From: a virus
Length of the DNA: 20,369 bases
IMG/VR virus record: IMGVR_UViG_3300027985_001514
Coordinates: 1 to 20,369 of that record
Strand: one strand, 5' to 3'
This document shows positions 6,943-10,518 of the stretch, one piece after another. Every line of letters starts with the position of its first letter. Position 1 is the stretch's first letter. The notes under the pieces are model-generated. The model ran no database searches. It worked only from the letters and a program-made list of their open reading frames with translations, and was not told the origin of the DNA. A program made the translations under genes and the position numbers.

Positions 6943-7185
6943 ATGTTTACTATTGAAGATATAGCTAAAGAGGTAAATAGTGGTACTCCATTGGAGCAGT
7001 TATATAAAAAGTTTGGAGGTTTTTCTATATACATCCCTAAAGTTATGCCTAATTATGAAAAGAAGGTGATAGCTGAGTTTAATGGATACAATCACGCAGC
7101 TCTAGCTACAAAATACAATGTAAGCATGAATACTATCTATAGAATCATAAGAGACTCAAAACCTAAACAAGCAAAGCTTTTTTAA
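6943..7185 (+). CDS. Mor/C-family transcription activator
   Basis: This 80-residue protein carries the Mor/C signature: FGG then IYIPK (about 25-33), FNGYN (46-50), and a C-terminal helix-turn-helix (HAALATKYNVSMNTIYRIIRDS, about 51-72). In Mu, Mor and C dimers activate the middle and late promoters. The protein is shorter than Mu Mor (about 129 aa) and keeps mainly the strand plus HTH core. The ATG at 6943 with GGGGG just upstream is preferred to an in-frame TTG at 6940. The stop overlaps the stop of the convergent G-like gene. Its probable targets are the two divergent promoters at 12775-12881. Confidence 0.86.
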   Translation: MFTIEDIAKEVNSGTPLEQLYKKFGGFSIYIPKVMPNYEKKVIAEFNGYNHAALATKYNVSMNTIYRIIRDSKPKQAKLF

Positions 7186-7664
7186 TCATCTATTATAAAA
7201 TTCCCTATATCTTCTAAAATCTCATTTGTTGTTTTAGTATCTAAATCCAACTCATCTGTAAATGGCATATATCTTCTTTGTTTTATATTTCTTTTATCAT
7301 CTCCAAAGAAGTGAGTTGCTGCATACTCTTTAGCTGCTACAATCTCTGTACTATCTTTTGTAGCTGTATAATCAATAGAACTTTGTAAATCCCCTGTATC
7401 TCTAAGTATTCTTTTATCTGCTACTCTTTGCTTACCTTTTTTTGTTTTAGCTCTTTTTTTGCCTCCAGCTTGAGTTAGAGTTGTATCAGAACTAACAGGA
7501 GACCAAGGTATTCCACTTATAGGGTCTCTTTCTTTTTCAAATGCCTCCATACTTTTAGATGTAACCTTTTCTCCAATAGTATGCATTATAGGTTTCATGT
7601 TATTTGTTCTATCAATTATACTTTCTAAAAAGTTTCCTACCTCTTGAATATTTGTAGTATTCAT
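7182..7664 (-). CDS. virion morphogenesis / tail completion protein (Mu gpG-like)
   Basis: This 160-residue protein matches the phage virion morphogenesis family (PF05069; Mu gpG, P2 gpS). Visible features are DPISGIPWSPVSS with a following Thr (the P-x-x-W pattern), a basic linker, ILRDTGDLQSSIDY, YAATHFFGDD, and RRYMPFTDE near the end. The family acts in head or tail completion. It is the last gene of the leftward late block. AAGGA lies 8 nt before the ATG, and the plus-strand promoter of the tRNA-like RNA is embedded in this same start region. The 3' end meets the Mor gene tail to tail with a 4-base overlap and no room for a separate terminator. Confidence 0.85.
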   Translation of the reverse strand: MNTTNIQEVGNFLESIIDRTNNMKPIMHTIGEKVTSKSMEAFEKERDPISGIPWSPVSSDTTLTQAGGKKRAKTKKGKQRVADKRILRDTGDLQSSIDYTATKDSTEIVAAKEYAATHFFGDDKRNIKQRRYMPFTDELDLDTKTTNEILEDIGNFIIDD

Positions 7665-7672
7665 GTTATAAT
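7644..7672 (+). promoter_or_regulatory. extended -10 promoter driving the tRNA-like RNA
   Basis: TTGAAT (7644-7649), a 17-nt spacer, and TATAAT (7667-7672) preceded by TG one base upstream (TGTTATAAT). A start 7-10 nt after the -10 falls at 7679-7682, exactly the 5' end of the folded RNA at 7683. It overlaps the start codon of the minus-strand G-like gene. It lacks the late motif, so it should not need the Mor-like activator. Confidence 0.7.
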
Positions 7673-7682
7673 TCCTTAAAAG

Positions 7683-7758
7683 GGCAGATGTAAGTCTCAG
7701 TAGTAGAGCGGATGACTCTTGTCATCGTGTCGTATGGTTGCAAAGCCTACCATCTGCC
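7683..7758 (+). ncRNA. 76-nt tRNA-like RNA (non-canonical)
   Basis: The sequence folds as a cloverleaf. The acceptor stem is 8 perfect pairs (7683-7690 with 7751-7758). The D arm is GCTC-like with one bulged T (7694, 7696-7698 with 7706-7709) and contains CAGTAGTAGAGC, close to the tRNA D-arm consensus. The anticodon arm is GATGAC/GTCATC (7711-7716 with 7721-7726) and leaves only TCTT, or a 6-nt loop CTCTTG if five pairs form. The T arm is GTA-GG/CCTAC with one bulged T (7735) and an 8-nt loop. No CCA is encoded. If read as a tRNA the anticodon would be CTT (Lys), but the short anticodon loop and bulges make normal decoding unlikely. It lies in the gap between the G-like and F-like genes, opposite in strand and directly beside the nuclease-like C-terminus. 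It could be a decoy, an immunity RNA, an antisense RNA, or a decayed tRNA gene. Confidence 0.65.
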
Positions 7759-8997
7759 TTATTTAATCTTTTCATAGTTTCCACTATCTAAATCTTTTTT
7801 TATATCTATTTCATTTACTTTTGTAGCTGTTGTTATAAGATTGTATGTATCTTTTTTATAAGTATAATTTACTCTTACAACTATTTTATTTACTTTATCA
7901 TCTTGGTTATAGATATATAAAACTGCTGGATCATTATTGTCATAAAGTATTTGATCAGGCTTTTGTAAAAAGTTTGGAATCTCTTTTATCTCTTCTAGGC
8001 TTAGAGGTGATTTTTTAGTATCCCTTAACATATGTGTTAAATCTTTTTTTCTCATGTGTATATGAGCCTTTTGTGGTTCTATACCTTTATCTTTTAAAAA
8101 CTCAAATACTGCATAGTCTATAGCTCCAGCTGTTATAATATTTTTATAGTAGGTTTTATCCTCTTTGATTTTGTCAATGTAGTTTTTAAAATCATCTTTT
8201 TTATCTATAGAAAATATATATTCAATAGCATTTTTAACTATTTTTTTACTAGAGCTACAGCTAGTGTCTTTTGCATTTGTTTCTTTGCAGTTCTTGGCAA
8301 GATTGATTGCTTTGTTATAGTAAGTATTTTCTAAAGCCTCTTTATCTAAAAATCTTAGATCATATAAAAAGTCACTATCTGCAAAGTTATAAGTTTTTGT
8401 ATCTACTTTTAAACCTAATCTCTCAAGGTCTTTTTTTGATAAAGATTTTACATAACATCTACAGCCCCAGCCATTTGGTGGAAAGTGCTTTTCCCAAAAG
8501 ATATCGTTTCTATGTTTTACTATACCATTTAAACTTGCATGGTCTGGCCTAGTTCTACTATCTAGGATGGCTGAGTATTGTATATATTCATTTGTACTGT
8601 TATAGATATTGTTAGCTCGTCCTACTGCATGAGCTGTTCTCATGTTTGTCTCAAATATAGTTCTTAATCTTCTTGAACCTATATATGTGGTTTTAACTTC
8701 ACCTGTATCAGGATTTAAAACCTCTTTCTCTCCATACCAACCTTTTTTTTGCAAGGTCGGTTTTATCTCTTTTTTCCATTTTTTAAAGCTTGTTCCCTCT
8801 TTCATAGCTTTAAGAAGTGAGTCTTGGATATCTGCTAAAACATCAAGCTGCATTATCTTAGCTACTGTAAAAGCTTTTTGGTGAGCCTCTTTTTGTAGGT
8901 CTTTATAATCAAAAGATAGGCTAAGACCTTTTTCTTGTAAAAAAGCTATGTTTTTATCTGGAGCTTTTTTAAAGTCAAGCTTTATTGGGGCACTCAT
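7759..8997 (-). CDS. Mu gpF-like minor head protein with C-terminal BECR-type nuclease-like domain
   Basis: Residues about 1-190 are the F/SPP1 gp7-like head morphogenesis domain (PF04233): NMRTAHAVGR (118-127), DSRTRPDHASLNG (146-158) and FPPNGWGCRC (172-181). A low-complexity linker around 235-260 follows. The last 130 residues do not belong to gpF. They contain HIHMRKKDLTHML (from 312), IPNFLQKPDQILYD, a YIYNQDDKVNKIVVRVN hairpin and LITTATKV, which resembles the phage barnase-EndoU-colicin E5/D-RelE-like (PBECR) nuclease group. This matches MuF-type polymorphic toxins, where a head protein carries a toxin into the recipient. Candidate catalytic residues are H312, H314, H322 and the Thr-Thr of LITTATKV; activity is not proven. 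The ATG overlaps the stop of the 52-aa ORF, and the stop abuts the tRNA-like RNA. Confidence 0.85.
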   Translation of the reverse strand: MSAPIKLDFKKAPDKNIAFLQEKGLSLSFDYKDLQKEAHQKAFTVAKIMQLDVLADIQDSLLKAMKEGTSFKKWKKEIKPTLQKKGWYGEKEVLNPDTGEVKTTYIGSRRLRTIFETNMRTAHAVGRANNIYNSTNEYIQYSAILDSRTRPDHASLNGIVKHRNDIFWEKHFPPNGWGCRCYVKSLSKKDLERLGLKVDTKTYNFADSDFLYDLRFLDKEALENTYYNKAINLAKNCKETNAKDTSCSSSKKIVKNAIEYIFSIDKKDDFKNYIDKIKEDKTYYKNIITAGAIDYAVFEFLKDKGIEPQKAHIHMRKKDLTHMLRDTKKSPLSLEEIKEIPNFLQKPDQILYDNNDPAVLYIYNQDDKVNKIVVRVNYTYKKDTYNLITTATKVNEIDIKKDLDSGNYEKIK

Positions 8998-9152
8998 TTT
9001 TTACCTTTAACTAATTTTGCAGTTCTTTTATCTATGTGATTTTTTTTATTTCTATCTAAAAACCCTTTGCCTAAAGGTTCTTGTTTTGATAAAAGAAGCA
9101 ATGTATTTCTTTTTAAAGTATTATTTCCTAATCTTACAATTGGGTCATTCAT
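8994..9152 (-). CDS. 52-aa basic protein between portal and F-like genes
   Basis: This ORF starts within the last codons of the portal gene (8-base overlap) and ends in an ATGA overlap with the F-like start, so translation of all three is coupled. The peptide is strongly basic (many Lys, Arg) with a short hydrophobic segment NTLLLLSKQ. No family is recognised, and Mu has no equivalent at this spot. It could be an assembly factor or simply a coupling ORF. It is basic, so it does not look like a typical acidic protein antitoxin. Confidence 0.62.
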   Translation of the reverse strand: MNDPIVRLGNNTLKRNTLLLLSKQEPLGKGFLDRNKKNHIDKRTAKLVKGKK

Positions 9153-10518
9153 CTATATTGCCTTGTATTGTTGCATTTGCTATATATTTACTAATGGTTG
9201 AGTTTAGCTCTTCTAGAGGGATATTATCATATTGCTCAGCTAAGATAGTAATAGCTTCTTGGTAACTGTCAGCTTCAGCTATAATCTGCTCAATCTCTTT
9301 TAAAGTTTCCTCTTCAATATCTTTTGTATCTAAGTTGTTTAACTGTACATCAATATGATCTAATGGTTTTTTAGCGTTGTATTCTTTATGTTTTGCTAAT
9401 GAAATGTTAGTGGTTCTTTTATTTTCTTCTTTAGAACTTGAGGTGTTTGAAGAGATATCTTGAAGATAAAACTTTGGATATTTTTTAAGGTCTGAAAAGT
9501 TAAGGTCACATATTTTTTTGATTAGATCATTTACTGTTTCAGATATAAGATTCATATCTGCTTTATGATAGGCTTCTTTTATCTCATTGTGAGTTTTATC
9601 TCTTGCATAACTTCCTGAGCTACTATCAGAGCTTGACATAGTTCCACCTAATATAACATGAGAGATAGCATTATCAGCGTATTTGATAAACTTCATAAAC
9701 ATATCGCCATTTGCTTTACCCTCAACTAATGAAACCTTATCTTCTTTTCCAAATACTCCAGCACTTCCTGATCTAAGTTCTAAGACCTGTTCAAACATTT
9801 GTAAGATAGTATCTTTGTCTGTTGCTGTTGAGTTTACAACTATAGGCGGTACTCCAAGTATCTCACAGTAGTTCATACTTTGACCTACAATAAAATGTTT
9901 GATAGCAAATATCCAAATAAGTTTTGATAGTGTTGAATAATCTAAGATATCTCCTGCATCTAGTTTATGAGTATGAAAAAGAAGCTTATATGGGTTTTTT
10001 GTTAGAAAGTGTTTTGTAAGCTTATCATCTTGGATAAATATTCCTTCTTTGTCATCTTTTTGGATAAGCACTTGATTTATAAAGTTAAATTTTGTAGGTA
10101 AAAAGTAAGTGCTGCCATTTATACTCTTTGATTCCCAGATTAAATCTATAATAGAATATCCAAAATCAATCCCTGAGTTAATATCACTTAGAAGTGAAGT
10201 TACTTTGATATCTTGAAAATAGCTGTTTATCAAGTCAAGGGCTTTTTTATCTCCACCTTTAATCTCATAGTTTGAAGCTAATATTCTTATCTTTCTTTCT
10301 TGTAAATCTCCACTTATTTGCCAATCTCTTTTTAGCATAGTTCTGTAAAGCTTCATAGTTTGCGTGAAGTTTTGAGTGTTTAGGATATGTTTTATAAGTG
10401 ATATATTTACATCATTGTAAATTGTAGCTTTAGAACTAAATCCAGCTCCTTTAATAACTATTTTCTCTTTTAGTGTTGTTCTCATGCTTTTTATAGCATT
10501 TGTGATTTTTCCTAACAT
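9145..10518 (-). CDS. portal protein (DUF935, Mu gp29-like)
   Basis: This 457-residue protein fits the DUF935 portal family of Mu-like phages. Typical blocks are MKLYRTMLKRDWQISGDLQERK, SGIDFGYSIIDLIWE, and a segment around GVPPIVVNSTATDKD with a following helix. The portal forms the dodecameric ring at the capsid vertex for DNA packaging and ejection. The C-terminal 110 residues are acidic and helical. It starts 3 nt after the terminase gene ends and precedes the F-like gene, the same terminase-portal-F order as Mu but on the minus strand. Confidence 0.9.
   Translation of the reverse strand: MLGKITNAIKSMRTTLKEKIVIKGAGFSSKATIYNDVNISLIKHILNTQNFTQTMKLYRTMLKRDWQISGDLQERKIRILASNYEIKGGDKKALDLINSYFQDIKVTSLLSDINSGIDFGYSIIDLIWESKSINGSTYFLPTKFNFINQVLIQKDDKEGIFIQDDKLTKHFLTKNPYKLLFHTHKLDAGDILDYSTLSKLIWIFAIKHFIVGQSMNYCEILGVPPIVVNSTATDKDTILQMFEQVLELRSGSAGVFGKEDKVSLVEGKANGDMFMKFIKYADNAISHVILGGTMSSSDSSSGSYARDKTHNEIKEAYHKADMNLISETVNDLIKKICDLNFSDLKKYPKFYLQDISSNTSSSKEENKRTTNISLAKHKEYNAKKPLDHIDVQLNNLDTKDIEEETLKEIEQIIAEADSYQEAITILAEQYDNIPLEELNSTISKYIANATIQGNIDE

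Follow-up and report, generated by a model that had tools for sequence, protein, structure and literature searches.

Why should a Mu-like prophage keep a gap between two adjacent head genes, and why should the strand opposite to those genes carry, within that gap, a promoter and a tRNA-shaped RNA? The question is raised by the window studied here, the whole 20,369-nt stretch of virus record IMGVR_UViG_3300027985_001514 (positions 1 to 20,369), which holds a Mu-like prophage of the Arcobacter family. In the 94-bp gap between its Mu F-like and G-like genes, the plus strand holds a promoter and a 76-nt cloverleaf, antisense to both genes. Comparison with related prophages shows this RNA to be conserved, structured, antisense, linked to a promoter and tied to the C-terminal toxin domain of the F-like protein by its presence, class and position, and this comparison strongly supports a partnership between RNA and toxin. 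We consider it likely that the RNA is one half of a toxin-immunity module, a tRNA-mimic antidote to the predicted RNase domain of F. An earlier, sequence-only reading of this DNA had recognized the RNA and left out its function; the neighboring toxin domain appears to be the context that decides it. The features of the gap and its borders are as follows.

7759-8997, minus strand: Mu F-like minor head protein, with a MuF domain (residues 56-183; Pfam Phage_Mu_F, E 4.9e-22) and a C-terminal toxin domain
7182-7664, minus strand: Mu G-like virion morphogenesis protein, the start of which forms the other border of the gap
7644-7649, plus strand: possible -35 element TTGAAT, with a 17-nt spacer to TATAAT
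7667-7672, plus strand: -10 element TATAAT with TG extension (consensus scan and base check), overlapping the start codon of the G-like gene
7683-7758, plus strand: tRNA-like RNA, 76-nt cloverleaf (covariance-model match 7682-7759, 43 bits), proposed to give immunity to the C-terminal toxin domain of F
7683-7690, plus strand: 5' arm of the acceptor stem, GGCAGATG, pairing with 7751-7758
7694-7709, plus strand: D-arm-like hairpin with a bulged T7695, a bulge also found in the related loci L002 and L022
7732-7750, plus strand: T-arm-like hairpin with a bulged T7735 and an 8-nt loop

A base-by-base check recovered the promoter, the cloverleaf and every pair and bulge named in the sequence-only reading. 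The acceptor stem GGCAGATG/CATCTGCC comprises eight Watson-Crick pairs, the D stem pairs G7694-C7709, C7696-G7708, T7697-A7707 and C7698-G7706 with T7695 bulged, and the anticodon-like hairpin has 6 bp and a 4-nt loop. The -10 is extended by TG at 7664-7665, with TGTTATAAT spanning 7664-7672 on the plus strand of the F-G gap, and the predicted start of transcription falls at about 7678-7681. Taken alone, the window sequence is only modestly informative: the cloverleaf stands modestly above chance (minimum free energy [MFE] z -2.5, with 4 of 200 shuffles equally good), and a consensus scan of the window region finds promoter-like sites no more often than in shuffled sequence. That the element is real is established by related prophages, which keep it. 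In the closest relative, L002 (Arcobacter sp. BM102), its sequence is 77% identical, and the D-stem bulge and 8-nt T loop are present as in the window; when phage records and genomes of the family were searched with the DNA of the window gap, only L002/G001 proved close enough. The wider comparisons draw on a survey of 172 loci from viral contigs and genomes, in which F, G and the gap were located by profile searches (154 of the loci are distinct, and G was located in 116 of these).

The F protein of phage Mu is a DNA pilot. Its counterpart in the window has the layout of the MuF polymorphic toxins, namely, a MuF head domain joined to a variable C-terminal toxin domain.

7762-8196, minus strand: C-terminal predicted RNase toxin domain (residues 268-412), MuF_C/PBECR3-like, with a BECR fold (homology and AlphaFold2 model)

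The C-terminal domains of Mu F-like proteins belong to the Pfam families PBECR2, PBECR3 or MuF_C, that is, to the phage barnase-EndoU-colicin-RelE (BECR) fold, and the domain of the window, whose class was assigned through its relatives, is 35% identical to a PBECR3 protein (E 2e-16). Its AlphaFold2 model (predicted local distance difference test [pLDDT] 92, predicted template-modeling score [pTM] 0.87) has a predicted helix at positions 50-57 carrying the catalytic-type His322 (model residue 55; codon at 8032-8034), and strands at 82-86, 91-98, 101-113 and 116-127. The modeled domain thus appears to have the N-terminal helix with a catalytic His and the subsequent four-stranded meander that define the BECR fold. 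Among solved structures, VIA-align places BrnT nearest (Z 6.0), followed by a Salmonella toxin (5.1) and two toxins of contact-dependent growth inhibition (CDI) systems (4.4 and 4.2), with HigB toxins also on the list. A profile search of PDB sequences with the toxin domain returned no match, and a Foldseek search with the full-length F model, in which the N-terminus is of low confidence, returned nothing useful. RNase activity is predicted for the domain, and passages of Iyer 2017 (PMC5512222) describe PBECR domains as predicted RNases that are injected with the DNA, with an inactive copy in Mu gp30 and active orthologues.

The presence of the gap follows the state of this domain. All 38 MuF_C-type domains with a catalytic-type His are accompanied by an F-G gap of at least 82 nt, and the six in which D, Q, R or T replaces this His (Mu, L067, L095, L099, L131 and L144) by one of at most 8 nt; gaps are also present with three Asn variants from a distinct subfamily and with two Gly variants, in which the His is shifted. 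Fisher's test of His against gap, which ignores relatedness, gives 1.4e-7, or 3.3e-5 with the Asn and Gly variants counted as His-less. L116 and L095, though closely related, are set apart by precisely this combination of catalytic residue and gap state. Nine F proteins have nothing beyond the MuF domain, and in these loci F and G share a few bases; F likewise overlaps G in L136, where the PBECR2-type domain looks degenerate by eye. Mapped on a MuF-domain tree, the gap state shows nine changes, of which at least six are forced, and among the independent pairs on this tree five agree, none stands against and one is undecided (sign test p 0.06, no lower because the counts are small). At L060, and also at L142 and L164, the F frame continues into the gap; the toxin end may overlap the RNA there, or F may be damaged.

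The dependence on the catalytic residue bears on the possibility that the RNA is a cis-antisense regulator, which in the lysogen would base-pair to the late mRNA where F and G meet, blocking translation of G or triggering RNase III. In its favor, the RNA has full complementarity to the F-G leader, the promoter does overlap the G start codon, and such a regulator would be produced when the late genes need silence. However, it leaves the link to the toxin's catalytic residue unexplained and, equally, a cloverleaf kept by compensatory change, and we regard this explanation as unlikely.

The evidence for that compensatory change comes from three sets of aligned RNAs. In 11 Campylobacter-type RNAs the acceptor and T stems are paired in 100% of cells, with both sides changed at 10 of 13 pairs; 12 RNAs that include that of the window are paired in 90% of cells, with both-side changes at 14 of 19 pairs; and an RNA class with a pseudoknot, taken up below, has both-side changes at 9 of 25 pairs, in both crossing stems. 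In none of these sets was the covariation score of the stems reached by any of 500 shuffles. Compensatory change is thus seen in the acceptor, D and T stems of the tRNA-like fold, weakly in the D stem, where a single pair has changed on both sides. This sustains the earlier suggestion that the fold is selected rather than left over from a decaying tRNA. The mismatches are G-U and not A-C (7:0 in the acceptor stem [A3]; 2:0 in the acceptor and T stems [A2]), with G-U where the sense strand would need A-C; therefore, it is the antisense strand that folds.

A covariance model built from the 12 RNAs and run over 0.6 Mb points to the same strand. Of its best 26 matches, 24 lie antisense at the toxin end, 13 of them being training rows or a near copy and 11 lying outside the training set, and in nearly all loci the matched RNA 3' end falls between -6 and +9 nt from the toxin stop. 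The expectation that all good matches would lie in gaps was wrong, two of them, both in L186, being genuine host tRNA genes (L186:1797-2046 holds a host tRNA cluster, Val, Asp and Lys, near a Mu-like prophage). Among 49 Campylobacterota gaps, 30 have a perfect TATAAT on the antisense strand and 1 on the sense strand, with 5.0 expected, and TGnTATAAT occurs on the antisense strand in 20 gaps against 0.38 expected. The idea that this -10 is a by-product of the ribosome site of G was dropped, since in L012 and others it lies outside that site. Homologous gaps hence conserve both the pairing and the promoter, contrary to the outcome that the sequence-only reading had named as its refutation, and the proposal of an antisense RNA with its own promoter stands. 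As to the 17-nt-spaced promoter of the sequence-only reading, the extended -10 is conserved antisense in Campylobacterota and the -35 is not, its counterpart in L002 being ATATGT. A non-conserved -35 is usual in Campylobacterota; being non-conserved, the spaced -35 deserves no emphasis.

These results also bear on whether the element is an ordinary or decaying phage tRNA gene, or else an element of the sense-strand mRNA. Consensus features of the D arm and T arm, together with the 'tRNA-OTHER' label given by NCBI to the E. coli relatives, would fit a tRNA gene. However, the window RNA has no CCA and lacks the 7-nt anticodon loop with a readable anticodon of a functional tRNA, and the anticodon arm is variable among relatives and missing in the RNAs of L080 and L184. 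ARAGORN, one of the checks suggested with the earlier reading, calls no tRNA within the window, consistent with this lack, and leaves most of the relatives' RNAs uncalled. Rfam at the gathering score gives no match within the window, whose RNA does not reach the tRNA threshold; that of the relative L014 passes it. The compensatory changes argue against decay, the G-U counts and the antisense -10 argue against a sense-strand element, and we hold this whole explanation to be very improbable.

The RNA follows the toxin in class as well as in presence. The RNAs that accompany MuF_C/PBECR3 domains are tRNA-like; 'FIDK'-type PBECR2 domains pair with an RNA made of an outer stem and an H-type pseudoknot, and other toxin subfamilies with further RNA folds. 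With the F N-terminus controlled for, RNA similarity tracks toxin similarity (partial r 0.34, p 0.002). Clear swaps occur in both directions, and F C-termini have been exchanged independently of the N-terminus: L169 and L165 share 0.97 of the F N-terminal score but 0.21 for the toxin and 0.15 for the RNA (within background), and for L056 and L062 the respective values are 0.92, 0.06 and 0.07. RNA swaps that accompany toxin swaps are a further observation for which cis-antisense regulation does not account. A packaging RNA like the pRNA of phi29 was dropped as a candidate because the RNA tracks the toxin domain. Another conceivable role is independent of F: the RNA might serve as a general decoy for host anticodon nucleases or for further defenses that cut tRNA. 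The RNA is tRNA-like with a degenerate or missing anticodon arm, as a decoy might be, and phage-carried tRNAs that counter tRNA cleavage are known (PMC12409363); however, the presence and class of the RNA follow the toxin domain of F more closely than the remainder of the protein, and its position at the toxin stop is fixed, so that we give this role very little credence. Further RNA folds that accompany other toxin subfamilies, at L058, L062, L007, L061, L009, L015, L078 and L122, include types with a recurrent GCTAA..GTAACGGCGTAAGG and types with GGTCGAGATTCC; they are possible new RNA families.

Some RNAs are found apart from the toxin that they match. L186 and L172 have two tRNA-like RNAs each, every one with its own -10; the toxin-proximal RNA resembles those of its own toxin class and the distal one those of another class. 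At L014 a tRNA-like RNA follows an extra MuF_C-type toxin fragment rather than the full F of that locus, and at L023 a toxin remnant is flanked by two RNAs. Outside the F-G context, three proteins were recovered through the toxin domain only: L019 is another kind of MuF-type head protein, L023 a 173-aa open reading frame (ORF) that stands alone, and L214 a remnant that adjoins a CRISPR array. At the stop codon of each lie an antisense -10 and a structured RNA. The RNAs of L019 and L214 and the distal one of L023 share a motif, with covarying stems visible in the alignment. The repeat of the array adjoining the toxin remnant and RNA of L214 is ATTCCACCGAAACAACAGTTGTATTGAAAC. In the Helicobacter pullorum prophage L059, the F-G gap is 462 nt long and contains three structured elements in tandem, at least two of which have a -10 each; they belong to the RNA class accompanying the 'THTHH' toxin family.

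Orphan immunity genes are a known pattern of protein-based polymorphic toxins, and by analogy the extra distal RNAs and the arrangements at L014 and L023 would represent the same pattern. Neither the distal RNAs of other classes nor those behind toxin proteins outside the F-G context are explained by cis-antisense regulation. The RNA might instead be a cofactor, scaffold or packaged cargo that aids the folding, activity or head loading of the toxin domain without inhibiting it. This would predict the identical co-occurrence with an intact domain and the same matching of classes; nevertheless, distal RNAs of other classes and the RNA behind the L014 toxin fragment resemble retained immunity, and the antisense placement and own promoter allow expression without the head genes, so that a cofactor role seems decidedly unlikely. 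Both this and the cis-antisense explanation account for the orphan RNAs and the class matching less simply than immunity does.

We therefore return to immunity as the preferred explanation and propose the following mechanism. The F-like head protein would carry a C-terminal BECR-fold RNase of the MuF_C/PBECR3 type that probably attacks tRNA, the tRNA-like partner being what makes tRNA the likely target. The opposite strand encodes a tRNA-shaped RNA with its own promoter, ending at the toxin stop codon. In the lysogen or the phage-producing cell, where we infer that it is expressed, this RNA would occupy the toxin in place of the substrate, without a productive reaction, and so keep it inactive; a cell that lacks the prophage, or that harbors a phage with another toxin, would have no protection. 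According to passages of PMC9086364, nearly all characterized BECR CDI toxins are tRNases, several of which act at the acceptor stem. This precedent, and the acceptor, D and T arms kept by the RNA, which make it look like a copy of the substrate that is useless for translation, led us to propose inhibition by binding. Since the RNA keeps these arms, while its anticodon arm varies or is absent, the toxin would recognize the upper half and the elbow of the tRNA shape. Other toxin subfamilies have RNA folds of their own, such as the pseudoknot.

Several points weigh against this reading. The structural matches of the toxin domain are modest, with a best Z of 6.0, even if the list of neighbors is consistent, and Foldseek with the C-terminal domain alone gives no match under 0.001. 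The domain of the window lies below the Pfam thresholds, its class being assigned via relatives; L002 scores 24.9 against a cut-off of 30, and L023 and L085 exceed the cut-off. RNA similarity also tracks the F N-terminus, if more weakly (partial r 0.20), and the test on the catalytic residue depends on few independent losses. L093 is an exception, with an F lacking the C-terminal domain and a 117-nt gap that folds well (z -5.8), in which neither a -10 nor tRNA-like features were seen. Single-sequence folding energy is near that of shuffles (mean MFE z -0.5 over 81 gaps), as expected for tRNA-like and pseudoknotted RNAs; being weak and not strand-specific, these z-scores are not counted as support. 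The RNA overlaps the G leader and may hence have an antisense effect on the late mRNA. Finally, the partnership comes from comparison of genomes, from which transcription, toxicity and neutralization are extrapolated.

Among known systems, the closest likeness is to the type III toxin-antitoxins (ToxIN, CptIN, TenpIN), which also combine an endoribonuclease toxin with a structured RNA that neutralizes it by direct binding, as is proposed here; ToxI is a pseudoknot, like the PBECR2-linked RNA. As laid out in passages of PMC5086642, the type III antitoxin precedes the toxin on one strand, in tandem repeats with a terminator between, whereas the RNA described here is antisense, downstream of the toxin, under its own promoter and usually in single copy; given this layout, the element is not placed among the type III systems. 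The RNA of the window's class is, moreover, tRNA-like. The toxins also seem to differ: those of type III (ToxN, CptN, TenpN) have a fold related to MazF/Kid and stand alone, and that considered here is predicted to be a BECR domain within a head protein, with Pfam placing its relatives in PBECR/MuF_C and with BrnT, HigB and CDI toxins as neighbors at modest Z. The protein half, with its variable C-terminal toxin, corresponds to the MuF polymorphic toxins of temperate phages (Jamet 2017, PMC5576092) and the PBECR domains (Iyer 2017, PMC5512222). The relevant passages of these two papers mention no RNA partner and guess at mRNA or CRISPR RNA as targets, whereas the tRNA-like partner points to tRNA. 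The CDI BECR tRNases with their CdiI proteins (e.g., CdiA-CT Kp342, 6CP9) are alike in the broad fold, in a tRNA substrate (which we infer for the window toxin), in module swapping and in orphan immunity; they differ in that immunity is a protein and delivery is by CdiA, in place of the RNA and the virion proposed here. Phage-encoded tRNAs share the tRNA-shaped product in a phage genome; the element described here differs in lacking a usable anticodon and CCA and in its tie to a neighboring toxin.

To our knowledge, the known antidotes of polymorphic toxins are proteins. No earlier description of the RNA partner was found among the open-licence literature. The earlier claim that no RNA of this kind had been described thus holds for the literature that could be searched, with the qualification that NCBI marks the E. 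coli relatives as 'tRNA-OTHER' genes, uninterpreted. On balance, and with somewhat less assurance than for the module itself, we think that a new class of immunity is probably at hand, in which phage-injected toxins are matched by antisense immunity RNAs, the largest class being tRNA mimics without a normal anticodon arm, with module swapping and orphan RNAs, across Campylobacterota, Enterobacteria and Pasteurellaceae. If true, an RNA antidote that copies the likely substrate of its toxin would be a new mode of toxin neutralization; it would make sense of a domain that has long been unclear, the C-terminal one of Mu-type F proteins (in Mu itself inactive), predict tRNA as the target and account for the 'tRNA-OTHER' genes in E. 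coli Mu-like prophages.

Structured antisense sequence in the F-G gap is found in Mu-like prophages of Campylobacterota, E. coli and Pasteurella, including Campylobacter phage CAM-P21, Helicobacter prophages and Pasteurella phage Pmp9. In E. coli the element is present in up to 209 of 5426 complete genomes (F-G query, 80% coverage). The 'tRNA-OTHER' feature lies between both head genes in all 15 E. coli records listed by the NCBI search, and it is antisense in the single record inspected. A paper on RNA-seq of enterohemorrhagic E. coli (PMC5331693) does not mention the element, and passages of a C. jejuni transcriptome study (PMC3656092) report many start sites within prophages. Tiny hypothetical proteins are annotated in the F-G gap of phage B3 (ORF34, L066:3728-3826) and CAM-P21 (a 31-aa coding sequence, L057:4754-4846); these are probably the RNA element misread as ORFs.

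In the window itself, the early genes run rightward up to 7185 and the head genes leftward, among them the following.

9145-10518, leftward: portal gene (gene layout of the window)

Some Mu-like prophages of the Arcobacter family have a second, separate tRNA-like gene (L021:442-527 and L012:269-355), which lies just past G on its 3' side and has a terminator as well as a long variable arm. ARAGORN labels such genes tRNA-Ile gat and tRNA-Phe gaa, isotypes with which the long variable arm is inconsistent.
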